Positions 5,117 to 18,694 of a stretch of 64,000 nt of DNA are shown here, in pieces. The notes beneath the pieces were generated by a model. That model saw nothing but the letters and a program-made list of their open reading frames with translations. It was not told the origin of the DNA and did no database searches. The position numbers and the translations under genes were made by a program. This DNA is from Acidicapsa acidisoli (GTDB lineage Bacteria > Acidobacteriota > Terriglobia > Terriglobales > Acidobacteriaceae), in the NCBI RefSeq assembly GCF_025685625.1, contig NZ_JAGSYI010000003.1, forward strand, positions 186,001-250,000. Direction: 5' to 3'. Within the stretch, counting starts at the first letter, position 1, and every line of letters begins with the position of its first letter.

Positions 5117-5740
<624 letters not shown>

Positions 5741-10819: not shown

Positions 10820-11233
10820 ATGCCGGATGTGAATCTTCTTCTCAAGCCCCGTGAGGCTGCCGCAGCTCTCGGCGTAAGCTACGCAACGCTCAAACAGTGG
10901 ATTCTCGCCGGAAAGATCACAACAACCAAGACGCCGGGCGGACATCATCGCGTGCCGCAGAGCGCGCTTACGCCGATGCTCAAGTCCGCTCCGACCAAGC
11001 CTCGCATCGAGTCCCGCGAACGCTTCCGCAATGTCAGCGGGCGCAATCAGCTGATTGGCAAGATCGTTGAAGTGAAGTTCAGCGGACTGCTGGCGCAGGT
11101 CGTGCTGGCGATCGGCGATCAGCAGATCACCTCAATTATCACGGCTGACGCAGCCCGCGAAATGCAGTTGCGCAAAGGGCAGACTGCAGCGGCGCTGATG
11201 AAATCGACGGAAGTGATGATTGTGCGCGTATAG
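10820..11233 (+). CDS. HTH-TOBE molybdate-type DNA-binding protein
   Basis: This 137-residue two-domain protein carries a MerR/excisionase-type HTH at residues 1-55 (LKPREAAAALGVSYATLKQW, then TPGGHHRVPQSAL). A single TOBE/Mop domain at about residues 70-137 (SGRNQLIGKIVEVKFSGLLAQ, LRKGQTAAALMKSTEVMIV) has the fold that binds molybdate or tungstate oxyanions. The combination resembles a compact ModE-like sensor with a different DNA-binding head. No mod transporter is adjacent. A GAGGTGG ribosome-binding site fixes the start. The gene is divergent from the barrel protein, which may be its target, though that is inferred. Confidence 0.85.
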   Translation: MPDVNLLLKPREAAAALGVSYATLKQWILAGKITTTKTPGGHHRVPQSALTPMLKSAPTKPRIESRERFRNVSGRNQLIGKIVEVKFSGLLAQVVLAIGDQQITSIITADAAREMQLRKGQTAAALMKSTEVMIVRV

Positions 11234-11277: not shown

Positions 11278-13299
11278 ATGCGTCTCTTCCATTCAGCCAG
11301 CGCTGTTATTGCTATTGTTGTTGCGGTCTTGTCGTTCGCCGCAATGCCCCTCCCCGCACAACAGGCGCAACTCGACGTTACGGTCAAGGATGTCACTGGG
11401 GCGGTTGTGCCAGGCGCGGTTATCCAGATCGATCCGACACCTTGTGCAGCCGAAACCACCGAGAAGGCGGATGTCCAGGGTAAGGCGGTGATCGGCGCGC
11501 ACCCAGGCAGGCATACGATCGTCGTAAAGGCGCAGGGTTTTGTGCCTTGGTCGCAGCAGATTGATGTGATGGATGGAACCAGGCAGCCCGTCATTACCGC
11601 GCTCGCGATTGGAGGGGGAAGCACCGTTGAAGTGCAAGTCATGCCAGAGCTGATCCTTTTCGGTGGGACGATTCTCACCGGGAACTGCCTTGCCGAAAAC
11701 AAGCCGCAGATTGTTACCTCAATAGCCTTTGCAAATGGCAAAGTGCTGGCCGTCGGCTCAGACGATGACATCAAGCGAATCGCTGGGCCACAGACGTGGC
11801 TCCACGATCTCAATGGAGCATTTGTTATGCCGGGGTTGAATGATGCGCATGTGCACCTTGGCGGCGCGGGGCAGACCAAGCTCAATGTGGACTTGACCGG
11901 CTCGAAGTCGCTCGACGAAATGCTGCGACGCGTTCAGGCGAAAGCAAACGAAAGCCCGGCTGGACACTGGCTCACTGGCGGAGGATGGGACCATACGCTT
12001 TGGGCGAACAAGACACTACCCACGCGGCAGGATCTGGATCGAGTTACAAGTGGTCATCCGACGCTGCTGGAGCGGATCGACGGGCACATCGCCGTGGCCA
12101 ATTCTGCGGCCCTGGCTGCGGCGGGAATCACGGGCAAGACGAAAGCTCCGCAGGGCGGCGCGATTGATCTCGACGCAAGCCGGGAGCCTACCGGCATTCT
12201 GCGCGACACGGCGATGGAAGTGGCAGAAAAGACCATTCCGCCGCCCTCGCATGAGGATCGGCGGCACGGACTGGAACTTGCCATTCAGGATGCCGTTTCG
12301 CATGGCCTTACTTCGGTGCAGGATTACTCGGATTGGCAGGATTTTCTCGTCTTCGAGGAACTTGAAAAAGAGAACAAGCTTCCGCTGCGCATCAGCGAAT
12401 GGCTGACTTTCAATGATCCGATCGACGTGTTGAAGGAGCATCGCTCGCATCATGACGTGAACGATCCGATGCTGCATACGGGCATGTTGAAGGGCTTCAT
12501 GGATGGCTCGCTCGGCTCGCACACAGCGGCGATGAAAGCGCCTTATGCCGATGAACCAAATAACTCCGGACTGCCGCGATACGACCAGGCGAAGCTGAAT
12601 GCGATGGCCGTTGAGCGCGCTCAGGCTGGCTTCCAGCTTGGCTTTCACGCCATCGGCGATAGGGCCGCGGCCATGGCTCTTGACGCTTTCTCGCAGACTT
12701 ACGACGCTTGCCCCGAACTTGCACCGCAGGACAAGAATCCATACAAGGTTTCGCGCTGCTGGCCTACCGTGTCGCAGGGCCACCGTGACCGCGTTGAACA
12801 TGCGCAGGTCGTCGATCCGGCGGACATTGCGCGCTTCGCCAAACTTGGTGTGATTGCTTCGATGCAGCCGAATCACTTGCTCACCGACATGAACTGGGCG
12901 ATGGATCGACTGGGCCCGGAGCGCGCTACGCATTCGTATGCTTGGAAAGCGTTTCTTGATGCGGGTGTGGTTGTAGCCTTTGGCACCGACTATCCTGTGG
13001 AGCCGGTCACACCGTTTCGCGGCCTTTATGCGGCTGTAACGCGAACCAACGAAGACGGGACGAAGAGCTATTTCCCCAAGGATGCGCTGACTCGCGCCCA
13101 GGCTCTTTATGCTTACACGCAAGGTTCTGCTTATGCCGAATTTGCGGAGAAGCGCAAAGGAAAGCTGGAACCGGGATACGAGGCCGACTTCATTCTGCTG
13201 GACCGCAATCTGCTCACAGTTCCTGCGCATGAGATTCTCGGAACCAAGGTGCTTGAAACCGTTGTTGGCGGCAAAACTGTCTACAAGGCACAACCGTGA
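11278..13299 (+). CDS. Exported YtcJ-type amidohydrolase with N-terminal regulatory-like domain
   Basis: This 673-residue enzyme begins with a signal peptide (residues 1-30, ending PLPAQQ). A transthyretin-like carboxypeptidase-regulatory domain follows at about 30-115 (LDVTVKDVTGAVVPGAVIQI to HTIVVKAQGFVPW). The amidohydrolase barrel of the YtcJ group fills the rest: GAFVMPGLNDAHVHLGG binds metal, and HAIGDRAA, DRVEHAQ and FGTDYPVEP are the later ligands and active-site segments. The domain ends with LEPGYEADFILLDRN. YtcJ-type enzymes are metal hydrolases of poorly known amide or ester substrates. The N-terminal domain is extra relative to the family and may bind a surface or peptidoglycan. 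The stop overlaps the GTG start of the EamA transporter, implying coupling. Confidence 0.88.
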   Translation: MRLFHSASAVIAIVVAVLSFAAMPLPAQQAQLDVTVKDVTGAVVPGAVIQIDPTPCAAETTEKADVQGKAVIGAHPGRHTIVVKAQGFVPWSQQIDVMDGTRQPVITALAIGGGSTVEVQVMPELILFGGTILTGNCLAENKPQIVTSIAFANGKVLAVGSDDDIKRIAGPQTWLHDLNGAFVMPGLNDAHVHLGGAGQTKLNVDLTGSKSLDEMLRRVQAKANESPAGHWLTGGGWDHTLWANKTLPTRQDLDRVTSGHPTLLERIDGHIAVANSAALAAAGITGKTKAPQGGAIDLDASREPTGILRDTAMEVAEKTIPPPSHEDRRHGLELAIQDAVSHGLTSVQDYSDWQDFLVFEELEKENKLPLRISEWLTFNDPIDVLKEHRSHHDVNDPMLHTGMLKGFMDGSLGSHTAAMKAPYADEPNNSGLPRYDQAKLNAMAVERAQAGFQLGFHAIGDRAAAMALDAFSQTYDACPELAPQDKNPYKVSRCWPTVSQGHRDRVEHAQVVDPADIARFAKLGVIASMQPNHLLTDMNWAMDRLGPERATHSYAWKAFLDAGVVVAFGTDYPVEPVTPFRGLYAAVTRTNEDGTKSYFPKDALTRAQALYAYTQGSAYAEFAEKRKGKLEPGYEADFILLDRNLLTVPAHEILGTKVLETVVGGKTVYKAQP

Positions 13300-14219
13300 A
13301 ACTCCGCGCGTATCTTCTGATGCTCTTCACGGTCGCCGTATGGGGCACGACGTTTGTGCTGGTCAAGGACGCGCTTGCGGATGCAACGCCGCTTGCCTTC
13401 AACCTGGCGCGCATGGTGTTGGCGTTCCTGGCGCTTTCGATTGCTTATCGGCGTCACTGGCGTGAGGTGAGCCGAGGCCAGTTGATAGCGGGCGCGGTTG
13501 TCGGATTTTTCCTGGCGATGGGGTACCAGTTTCAGACGGCTGGTCTGGTCAAGACGACTCCTTCGAAGTCCGCGTTCATTACTGGCCTGGTGGTGGTTCT
13601 GGTGCCTCTGTTTTCGGTGATTCCGTGGCTGCGGCCGCCAGGCGCGAAGGCTCCGCGCTGGAATTCGTTTCTTGGCGCGCTGCTGGCTTTCGCGGGCATT
13701 TTGTTGTTAACTCTGCCAGCCAATGCTGTTGGTAAACAGGCCGGTCTGTTGCCGGATTTTACTTCGGTCAATATTGGCGATCTGCTTACCTTTGGCTGTG
13801 CGATTGGGTTTGCCTTTCACTGCCTGGCTCTGGGTCATGCTTCGCCGCGCATCCACTTTCAACCGCTGGCTTTATTGCAGGTGGGCTTCTGCGCATTTTT
13901 TATGGCGGTTAGTCTGCCGTTGATTGAGCATCCGCAGATGCATCTTACTTTGCGTCTTTGCGTGGCACTTGCAGTTGCGGCGGTACTGGCTACGGCTGCG
14001 GCGTTCTCTATTCAAAGCTGGGCTCAGTCGGTGCTGCCGGCGACGCACACAGCTCTGCTGATGACGCTGGAGCCGGTCTTTGCGTGGATCACCTCTTTCC
14101 TTGTGATGGGCGAACGGCTGGGTGTTCGTCCGGCGTCAGGCGCGATTCTTATCCTGGCTGGAATTGCGCTGACGGAGCTGGTTCCTCAGCCTCATGTGCC
14201 GACGGCGCATGAGGCTTGA
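13296..14219 (+). CDS. EamA/DMT-family transporter
   Basis: This 307-residue integral membrane protein has about ten hydrophobic segments in two homologous EamA halves (LLMLFTVAVWGTTFVLVKDA opens the first, and SIQSWAQSVLPATHTALLM with LILAGIALTEL lies in the second). DMT proteins export or import small metabolites, and the substrate cannot be inferred from sequence. The GTG start at 13296 overlaps the amidohydrolase stop by 4 bp, so the pair is probably an operon in which the transporter moves a substrate or product of the hydrolase (inference). Confidence 0.9.
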   Translation: MKLRAYLLMLFTVAVWGTTFVLVKDALADATPLAFNLARMVLAFLALSIAYRRHWREVSRGQLIAGAVVGFFLAMGYQFQTAGLVKTTPSKSAFITGLVVVLVPLFSVIPWLRPPGAKAPRWNSFLGALLAFAGILLLTLPANAVGKQAGLLPDFTSVNIGDLLTFGCAIGFAFHCLALGHASPRIHFQPLALLQVGFCAFFMAVSLPLIEHPQMHLTLRLCVALAVAAVLATAAAFSIQSWAQSVLPATHTALLMTLEPVFAWITSFLVMGERLGVRPASGAILILAGIALTELVPQPHVPTAHEA

Positions 14220-14240: not shown

Positions 14241-14256
14241 TGTTCCACGTGGAACA
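14241..14256. promoter_or_regulatory. parS centromere-like site (ParB-binding palindrome)
   Basis: TGTTCCACGTGGAACA is a perfect 16-bp palindrome identical in form to chromosomal parS sites (Bacillus consensus TGTTTCACGTGAAACA, with the C/G variant used in several proteobacteria). It lies between genes, 21 bp after the EamA stop. parS sites nucleate ParB loading and condensin recruitment and usually cluster near oriC. I saw no second copy in this window. Confidence 0.8.
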
Positions 14257-14454: not shown

Positions 14455-14847
14455 CTACGGAATGATGAAGGCTCCGGGAATCTTTGCGTCCAGGGTTGCC
14501 AAAGTCGCGCCGTGAGCCTTTGCCAGTTGCACAAGGTGACCGTCTGTGGTTTGGCTGGCGGTCTTGACCCATCCAGGAAGATGCGAGATATCCTGACCGT
14601 CCTCGATCAGGCTGATTGAGTAACCGGGAGCTTCTTTGAGTTGCACCAGGAGCATTTTTGCTTGTGCCACGGTAAATCCGTAGGCCTGTGCCTGCACAAG
14701 TATTCGGACAAACCCGAGTTCCGTGATCGAACAGGTAAGCAATTGCAACGACGGTTGCGCTCGCAGCCAGACAGCCACCCTTTCATGAAACGCGTGTTCC
14801 AAGAGGCCGAGGGCGATTAAGGCGTTCACGTCCAGCAGATACTTCAC
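14455..14847 (-). CDS. PIN-domain ribonuclease toxin (VapC-like)
   Basis: This 130-residue PIN-domain protein shows the expected acidic set: D6 in KYLLDVNALIALG, E43 or nearby in CSITELGFVRIL, and the late aspartates TTDGHLVQLAKAH and ATLD. PIN toxins cleave tRNA or mRNA when their antitoxin is lost. The start codon overlaps the stop of the AbrB-type gene upstream, the standard antitoxin-toxin order and coupling. It is intact in length with no visible active-site loss. Confidence 0.9.
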   Translation of the reverse strand: MKYLLDVNALIALGLLEHAFHERVAVWLRAQPSLQLLTCSITELGFVRILVQAQAYGFTVAQAKMLLVQLKEAPGYSISLIEDGQDISHLPGWVKTASQTTDGHLVQLAKAHGATLATLDAKIPGAFIIP

Positions 14848-16884: not shown

Positions 16885-18450
16885 TTACCTCGGCGCTGGC
16901 TCGGCTGAATCTGCGAGGGCGTAGGCGAGGACGGTCATGACCGCTGCGTTTTCGCTCAGTTCGCGGGGGTTGACCTTGTCGAAGGTGTCGGCCGGGGTGT
17001 GGTGATAGTTGAAGTAGAAGCGTCCGTCTTGCGATGGGGCGAAGCTGGGCACGCCTTTTTCGGTGAGAACGTTGATGTCTTCGCCGGTCTCGGGGGAGCT
17101 GCGGAAGGTGTTGGCGCCGATTGGTTCGAGGGCCTGAGCTACGGGGCGAAGCCAGTCTTCGAGGGCTGGTTTGCCTGCGAAGAGGACGCCGTCGGGGTGG
17201 CCTGCGCCGAGGTCGGATTCGATGGCTCCGATGTGATTGGCGGCTTCGGCGGCGTGCTCCTTGATGTAGGTGGCTGCGCCTTGTGAGCCTTCTTCTTCGC
17301 TCATCCATGCGATGAAGCGCACGGTGCGTTTTGGGTGAATGCCGAGTCTGGAGAGCAGATGGATGGCCTGCATGGAGACGACTACGCCCGCGCCGTCGTC
17401 GATGGCTCCGGTGCCGAGATCCCAGGAATCGAGATGGCCGGATACGATAACGACCTGCTCGGGATGCTCGGCTCCCTTCCAGTCAGCGATGACGTTGTAG
17501 CTGGGAGCGTCGGGGAGGGTTTGTGGTGTGAGGGTGAGGTGCAGTTTGACGGGGCCTTGGCTGGCGAGGTCGGCGAGTAGGTCGGCGTCTTCGGCGGTGA
17601 CTGCTGCGGCGGGGATCTTCTGGATGCCGTCGGTGTACATGGTCATGCCGGTGTGCGGGATGCGGTAGTCGGCTCCGCCGACGGAGCGGACCAGGACGGC
17701 GGCGGCTCCGACGGATGCTCCGGCGATGGGCGCCGCGGCGCGGTACTGGACTGCATCTCCGTAGGCGTAGATGCCGCCTTCCTGGGCGGCGAGCTGCTTG
17801 TCGAATTTCTTGTTGAACAGGATGATCTTGCCCTTTAGCGATGTGGCTGCCGGGCCGTCGCTGAGGGCTTTGAGGTCGGCCCAGGAGTTGACGACTACGA
17901 CCTCGGCTGTGATGCCGTCGGCGGGAGTGGCGACGCTGCCGCCGAGGGCGGTGAGGACGATTTTCTGCGTGGTTCCGGGCGTCATTCCTTTCCAGTCGAC
18001 GAGGGAGCCGGTTTCGATGCCGCGAATCCAGTGGGGAACGCTGGTTTTTTCGAGGGTGACATCCGCGCCGAGGGAACGCATTTCGGCGGCGACGTATTCG
18101 ACGGCCTGCTGGGCTTGTGGGGAGCCGCTGATGCGAGGGCCTATGTTGTCGGAGAGATGGCGGAGTTCGTCCAGAGCGTACGGATCGGCGATGGCGGCGT
18201 CGCGGAGGCGGGCCATGTTGGCGATCTGGGCGGGAGTCCAAGCGCTGGGGCCGGAGTTGAGGATGCGGGCCATGACGCGATCGCGGAGGGAGGTCGGAGC
18301 TGGTGCGGAAGCCGGGGCTGACTGCGGCATTTGGGCGGCAAGAATGGCCGGCCCCAGGGCGACGGCGCAGGCGATGAACCGGATGTGGCAGGAAAAGTTA
18401 CGGATGGTGACCAAAACGAATCGGAAATTGGTTCGATTTGCAGAAAACAT
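16885..18450 (-). CDS. Exported M28-family metallopeptidase
   Basis: This protein of about 521 residues starts at ATG 18450, with a signal peptide ending near [11 protein letters not shown]-type insert sits mid-sequence ([12 protein letters not shown]). The di-zinc catalytic domain begins at [20 protein letters not shown], giving the histidine and bridging aspartate. [11 protein letters not shown] supplies the general-base glutamate and a ligand, [10 protein letters not shown] the next aspartate, and [10 protein letters not shown] the last histidine. All five ligands can be assigned. The domain order resembles carboxypeptidase Q (plasma glutamate carboxypeptidase), so peptide or dipeptide hydrolysis in the periplasm is likely. 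An upstream in-frame ATG at 18510 lacks support. Confidence 0.9.
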
Positions 18451-18694
18451 GCCAGATAGTAGCACGATGAAAGCCGGGCTTTGTGACGATGCGCCATCGG
18501 ACGGGGTCAATTCCGTCTAACAGTAGGACGGTGTTTCGACTGGCGCATCAACGCCGGCACGACACTGGCTGAACCGAATCGCTATACTAAGGAATGGCCC
18601 AGCGCAAGTTGTGCCGCCATTTTTGGACCGCGTTGTACACCGGACTGACCCAGATGGATTGGGCAGAGGAAAGAACCCGAGGTTGAACGACTTT

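Follow-up and report, generated by a model that had tools for sequence, protein, structure and literature searches.

In the chromosomal ParABS systems that have been described, ParB nucleates at parS sites, spreads from them, recruits SMC and is moved by ParA, and the parS sites are usually tied to the origin of replication (PMC5815017, PMC7022226, PMC8357415, PMC5098823, PMC7383237, PMC10419367). Scattered parS sites are reported to be limited to a few lineages that include the Bacilli (PMC8357415, citing Livny 2007). In P. aeruginosa ten scattered parS sites have been proposed (PMC5098823), and at least five parS-like sequences with two substitutions are bound (PMC10419367). In L. reuteri, Hi-C is reported to show a local contact pattern with each of three spaced parS sites (PMC10197239). 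Our subject here is the 16-bp parS-type palindrome TGTTCCACGTGGAACA in a 64-kb stretch of Acidicapsa acidisoli DNA (the whole of which we call the window), and the set of 19 loci, this one among them, at which such sites are dispersed over the five largest contigs of the same genome, outside its parAB locus.

The window is C3:186001-250000 in a genome of 7,113,555 bp and 18 contigs (C1, C2 and so on; this genome is G000, other G numbers denote the genomes of relatives, and G001 is Acidicapsa dinghuensis 4GSKX, a named strain in the databases). The palindrome lies at C3:200241, and its dyad is perfect, with 0 mismatches, exactly where the initial annotation of the window had put it, at 14241-14256; it is an exact match to the 16-bp palindromes of the TGTTYCACGTGRAACA class. 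No other match at up to three mismatches exists inside the window, and shuffled windows are expected to hold 0.63 such matches, so a loose match within the window carries little weight. Exact copies of TGTTCCACGTGGAACA number 13 in the genome, against 0.0014 predicted from base composition and 0 for the reversed control, which bears out the annotation's opinion that a random exact match is very unlikely. At up to two mismatches there are 25 sites (13 exact, eight with one mismatch and four with two); at up to three there are 54, and matches beyond two mismatches were left unused because the reversed control then reaches 27. The 25 sites consist of five exact copies in the parAB locus, the 19 dispersed loci (eight exact, eight with one mismatch and three with two) and C2:1682407, a two-mismatch match inside a called gene, which was excluded. 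C2:1635032, which has three mismatches and fits the degenerate pattern, is also outside the dispersed set.

The parAB locus on C1 is an ordinary chromosomal parABS locus. Its gene order is gidB-parA-parB, five exact TGTTCCACGTGGAACA sites lie inside it at C1:1375983-1377309, and parB (C1:1377466) encodes a 304-amino-acid protein with ParB_N, HTH_ParB and ParB_C domains (Pfam); the solved structures that it matches are those of ParB family proteins, Spo0J, ParB and Noc. The annotation took its palindrome to be of the parS type and allowed that a genome lacking parB would speak against this; parB is present, and identical sites accompany it. Judging from sequence, the window palindrome is in all likelihood a genuine parS centromere, and we expect with considerable confidence that it would bind this genome's ParB. 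There are four ParB_N matches in the genome, only one of which has the short ParB_N-HTH-ParB_C build; the other three are a 109-amino-acid open frame and two long proteins (548 and 640 amino acids) without ParB_C. ScpA is encoded in all 15 genomes of the genus, and the HTH region of ParB shows differences between relatives, which might accompany changes of the parS consensus. A ParB-like protein of about 550 amino acids is present in both G000 (C2:1220398, L068; ParB_N and HTH_ParB, no ParB_C) and G002 (C4, L107:815-2488), and a two-mismatch parS-like site lies about 1 kb from the G002 gene.

The dnaA gene of G000 is at C1:1655782, 279 kb from parAB, and C1 extends 1.656 Mb from it on one side and 0.902 Mb on the other. 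The window is on a different contig, so its distance from dnaA is a bound set by contig ends: C3 is at least 0.90 Mb from dnaA, and the window site at least 1.10 Mb from dnaA and at least 1.38 Mb from the parAB cluster, provided that the assembly of C1 is right. If the origin domain is defined as in PMC7022226, at 20% of the chromosome (about +/-0.71 Mb for this genome), the site is, on that same proviso, outside it, and the annotation's suggestion that this segment is probably inside the ParB-bound origin domain finds no support; such a location is usual for parS and not strictly required of it. The dispersed loci number six on C1, four on C2, five on C3 and two each on C4 and C5, about 100-900 kb apart, and those on C1 span -976 to +806 kb of dnaA. 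Their counts are consistent with the lengths of the contigs (chi-square P 0.46) and their positions within contigs with a uniform distribution (Kolmogorov-Smirnov (KS) P 0.31), both being weak tests with n=19. Regular spacing is not shown by the gaps between them (coefficient of variation 0.74 against 0.92 simulated, P 0.16), and GC skew in forty 20-kb samples of G000 was too noisy to locate the origin or the terminus. Set against dnaA, as the annotation had proposed, the dispersed sites do show the genome-wide scatter without origin bias that it would have held against a parS. This scatter does not disprove a parS, because a parB exists and the consensus of the parAB cluster recurs at the dispersed sites, also in G001 and partly in G012, where it has changed.

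In five genomes (G000, G001, G002, G012 and G031) one common pattern served to count half-sites both inside the parAB locus and outside it; the loci were picked from TGTTCCACGTGGAACA matches at up to two or three mismatches (one G012 locus otherwise), so the choice leans toward that consensus. G001 has 52 pattern matches, 49 of which the comparison covers (50 of 63 places are listed for this genome). TGTTCCAC makes up 10/10 parAB half-sites and 25/34 dispersed ones in G000, 13/14 and 15/26 in G002, and 14/14 and 16/16 in G031. The form in G001 is TGCTCCAC, with 10/16 in parAB and 49/82 dispersed, and in G012 it is TGTTACAC, with 6/6 in parAB and 4/12 dispersed, so that dispersed and parAB-proximal sites co-vary clearly in G001 and partially in G012. 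The true pairing of parAB with dispersed sites over the five genomes ranks 2 of 120 permutations, a coarse test in which three genomes share one consensus. In relatives, 89 parB loci were available, and among the best 80 of them (15 of which lack a site) TGTTCCAC accounts for 225 of 256 half-sites, and the ten TGCTCCAC and six TGTTACAC half-sites in those 80 loci are exactly the contribution of G001 and G012. TGCTCCACGTGGAGCA occurs elsewhere in the phylum.

All 19 dispersed loci are intergenic according to a crude gene caller, which assigns no gene to 16% of 800 kb of samples. The window site and several others are in convergent gaps or just behind stop codons (several are 20-60 bp after the stop, with A/T flanks), and others are in divergent gaps. 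The flanks of the 19 loci prefer A/T at roughly the first three positions either side of the 16-mer; farther out than about 8 bp they are not alike, and the commonest base has a mean share of 0.39-0.40. A dispersed repeat, a miniature inverted-repeat transposable element or another copied unit was rejected on this comparison, in which the A/T preference is the only likeness beyond the 16-mer. Nine TGTTCCAC half-sites lie within 150 bp of the dispersed sites, a total of 5.7 kb, whereas 800 kb of samples contain 22, and when TGTTCTAC is also counted an extra half-site is found within 150 bp at 11 of the 19 loci. In G001 the sites at many loci form arrays of two to five with spacings of 23-75 bp, and its other loci are single. 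The same kind of crude gene calling puts some sites of relatives inside genes (three dispersed and one parAB site in G001, one site in G002, one dispersed and one parAB site in G012, and three sites in G031), and some of these may be start-codon errors. The flanks at L022-L040 and the window site also show a weak extended dyad: besides the A/T preference, more than half of the 19 loci have C at -7 together with G at +7 or +8, which possibly represents further ParB contacts. The 7.3-kb contig C5 of G001 (L077) has four parS-type sites and encodes a 183-amino-acid protein that is 83% identical to one at the site-bearing locus L091 on its contig C1.

The occurrence of such sites in other genomes was surveyed with the pattern TGYTNYACGTRNARCA, for which controls gave mostly 0-1 matches and at most 3; lineages with another consensus could be missed. 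Among 300 genomes of the family the median is two matches, 16 genomes have 6-9, and 21, in 9 of 79 genera, have 10 or more, and none of 218 genomes of the phylum outside the family reaches 10 (the largest count is five). Ten or more matches need not equal dispersal, and the places of the sites were read for eight genomes: there are dispersed loci in G000, G002, G031, G111 (only three), G142, G201, G295 and, among the matches listed, G001. Exact sites lie on many contigs in G013, and some of the places in G213 were listed. Within the genus, high counts sit in larger genomes. Elsewhere in the family, G180 (genus g54) and G099 (genus g15) have 50 and 34 pattern matches with 0 in the control, and members of genus g7 (G020, G135, G154, G171, G198 and others in the survey) have 0 or 1, as would be expected if their parS consensus were different or the system had been lost.

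Six relatives assembled in one contig (G046, G060, G108, G129, G131 and G140) have a single cluster of 2-5 sites, 15-82 kb from dnaA; elsewhere each has 0-4 matches, all of them with one or two mismatches, where the control gives 0-3. In G031, also one contig (3,686,523 bp), seven sites cluster 412 kb from dnaA, and a further seven loci are dispersed at 187 to 1783 kb from dnaA, the last of which is at 97% of the half-chromosome. Five of these dispersed loci lie no farther from dnaA than 0.29 of the half-chromosome (KS P 0.11), which shows neither uniformity nor origin bias. A link between dispersal and a large distance from dnaA to parAB was considered and rejected: G000 (279 kb) and G031 (412 kb) fit it, but G111 and G142, whose main site clusters (where parAB is presumed to be) are 29 and 18 kb from dnaA, do not.

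The surroundings of the site in the window are as follows.

10820-11233 and 11278-13299, plus strand: two genes upstream of the EamA gene, syntenic in G002 too
13296-14219, plus strand: EamA-family transporter gene (PF00892, E 3e-30), its stop 22 bp before the start of the palindrome
14241-14256, no strand: parS-type 16-bp palindrome TGTTCCACGTGGAACA, a perfect dyad and one of the 13 exact genome copies
14455-14847, minus strand: PIN-domain (VapC-like) gene (PF01850, E 4e-6), convergent with the EamA gene
16885-18510, minus strand: M28 peptidase gene, a syntenic marker common to the G002 locus with the corresponding site

The neighbours, EamA and vapC, and the intergenic placement are those that the annotation had named; the site is in the gap between these convergent genes, outside the promoter region of both. 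A tRNA-Asn (gtt) gene at 5118-5192 on the minus strand is the only tRNA gene found in the window (ARAGORN).

Conservation of position was judged from the proteins encoded around dispersed sites, with 20 regions of G001, 11 of G002, seven each of G012 and G031, and one of G013 representing the relatives. The window block (the two upstream genes, EamA, the site, the M28 peptidase gene and the next gene) is syntenic in G002, where EamA is 80% identical and the interval from EamA to the M28 peptidase gene contains no called gene. The G002 counterpart of the site is TGTTCTACGTAGAACA, which starts 44 bp after the stop codon of EamA; its change is symmetric, so that the palindrome is retained. The 13 other genus members with EamA have no site at up to two mismatches to four consensus forms within 900 bp, and G013 has one three-mismatch match near EamA. 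Of the other dispersed loci, C1:2145475 is common to G001 and G002 (91 and 94% protein identity), C5:104708 to G001 and G013, and C4:486739 to G001. The seven regions each from G012 and G031 contain no counterpart of the G000 loci, and weaker coincidences of neighbours (L026/L079, L037/L094 and L040/L105) were left out of the count.

The best reading of these data appears to be a ParABS variant in which the sites for ParB loading are distributed. It takes copy number, location, intergenic placement, shared consensus, partial positional conservation and recurrence in relatives from the sequence, and would add to them ParB binding, spreading, SMC recruitment and a purpose. The dispersed set is quite probably under selection, and it probably represents functional ParB sites; that its main role would be distributed SMC/ParB loading is possible, if somewhat short of likely. 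As a fuller picture we offer the tentative conjecture that in some Acidobacteriaceae the origin centromere may have been made distributed. All the way from origin to terminus, a single ParB would load at some 10-20 intergenic loci or more, many of which are small arrays that combine full sites with half-sites, and would seed ParB clamps and SMC loops along the chromosome; the layout would have arisen several times from a one-cluster state, and dispersed sites could follow a change of consensus. In the best reading itself, ParB dimers would nucleate at each dispersed locus, close as cytidine triphosphate (CTP) clamps and spread locally, and the loaded ParB would recruit SMC-ScpAB, with SMC being delivered along the arms and not only at the origin centromere. 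The parAB cluster would presumably stay the ParA-driven centromere, and the dispersed loci would serve nucleoid organisation. Alternatively, dispersed ParB might serve to control division by marking the nucleoid, which is the role of Noc in Firmicutes.

Several points weigh against distributed loading. The G000 assembly is a draft of 18 contigs, and 263 of the 300 family genomes hold 0-5 TGYTNYACGTRNARCA matches. Extra mid-arm parS is harmful in Caulobacter (PMC5815017), parS of P. aeruginosa must sit within a region of about 650 kb around oriC (PMC5098823), and widely spaced strong parS sites lead to SMC collisions in B. subtilis (PMC8357415); tolerance is also reported, of parS near ter in Caulobacter (PMC5815017) and of parS moved 650 kb in V. 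cholerae (PMC5098823). In G012, 8/12 dispersed half-sites depart from that genome's own parAB consensus. Positional counterparts in relatives were found for 4 of the 19 dispersed loci (a raw count), among which the G002 counterpart of C1:2145475 has two mismatches and both sites at C4:486739 have two. Finally, of 14 other genus members one has a counterpart of the window site; turnover of the sites, as read from the sequences, is therefore clearly fast, and many of them could be neutral.

A fully neutral origin, in which the dispersed sites are by-products that arise, move, decay and are tolerated in large genomes, would agree with this high turnover between species, with the presence, next to full sites, of half-sites that could have arisen by decay, and with the larger genomes of the genus members that have high counts. 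We nevertheless think it unlikely, given that the flanks are unlike beyond about 8 bp with no copied unit, that some positions are kept between species at 80-94% protein identity, and that the G001 motif tracks its own parAB consensus and stands at many loci in arrays of 2-5 sites. It is more improbable that the dispersed sites bind another protein, either a transcription factor or a Noc-like ParB paralogue, for example in nucleoid occlusion. Noc sites are, like these, widely spread on the chromosome, but two of their positions are not those of parS and the region near the terminus lacks them (PMC7383237); the sites here have parS letters. The ParB_N matches that remain beside ParB are the 109-amino-acid frame and the 548- and 640-amino-acid proteins that lack ParB_C, the altered parAB consensus of G001 (and partly that of G012) is shared by the dispersed sites, and convergent gaps and positions just behind stop codons are poor ones for an operator. 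We give little credence to the idea that these are ordinary origin-proximal parS sites whose scatter is due to draft contigs or secondary replicons: parS is near oriC in most bacteria (PMC5815017, PMC7022226) and in the six one-contig relatives above, and an assembly of 18 contigs with further ParB-type genes of another architecture leaves some room for it, but the sites on C1 run from -976 to +806 kb of dnaA, the window contig and site are at least 0.90 and 1.10 Mb away, and in one-contig G031 the sites reach 97% of the way to the dnaA antipode. Transcription terminators or other RNA hairpins resembling parS would suit the sites 20-60 bp after stop codons with A/T flanks, but are hardly credible when the sequence itself is conserved, including its CACGTG centre, and sites are also found in divergent gaps and as arrays in the parAB locus.

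The dispersed layout is contrary to the rule that parS stands beside oriC, and displaced or extra parS is costly in several of the model species tested. Relatives with about two, ten, twenty or fifty sites are a natural experiment on the origin placement of centromeres, and the same family can inform on the avoidance of SMC collisions and on specificity change when many sites must co-change. No publication on parS dispersal in Acidobacteria/Acidobacteriota was found by title or start of abstract in the openly licensed literature.

When set beside the systems already known, this one resembles origin-proximal chromosomal ParABS in its 16-bp motif class, its gidB-parA-parB order with internal sites and its canonical ParB domains, and is unlike it in having 19 further loci over all five large contigs. 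In the P. aeruginosa parS set, the distal sites are substituted and another study predicted only four sites, near oriC, whereas eight dispersed sites are exact here and the relative G001 holds 52 matches. The half-parS binding described in P. aeruginosa likewise places ParB at many positions far from oriC, but at hundreds of 7-bp half-sites with narrow peaks, whereas the loci here are full 16-bp palindromes with half-sites at 11 of 19. Noc and the Noc-binding sites (NBS) of Firmicutes share with it a ParB-family protein and genome-wide sites, but are described as having another motif, avoidance of the terminus and a separate paralogue, whereas here the motif is that of parS and one canonical ParB was found. 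The window motif has parS-type letters and not those of NBS, and a single short ParB stands among the four ParB_N matches. The Bacilli also combine scattered parS with SMC-ScpAB, and B. subtilis has a natural distal site at -304 kb (PMC8357415); the same article suggests a link there to the genome quarter captured in sporulation, whereas the sites described here are on all large contigs and, in G031, lie close to the antipode of dnaA.
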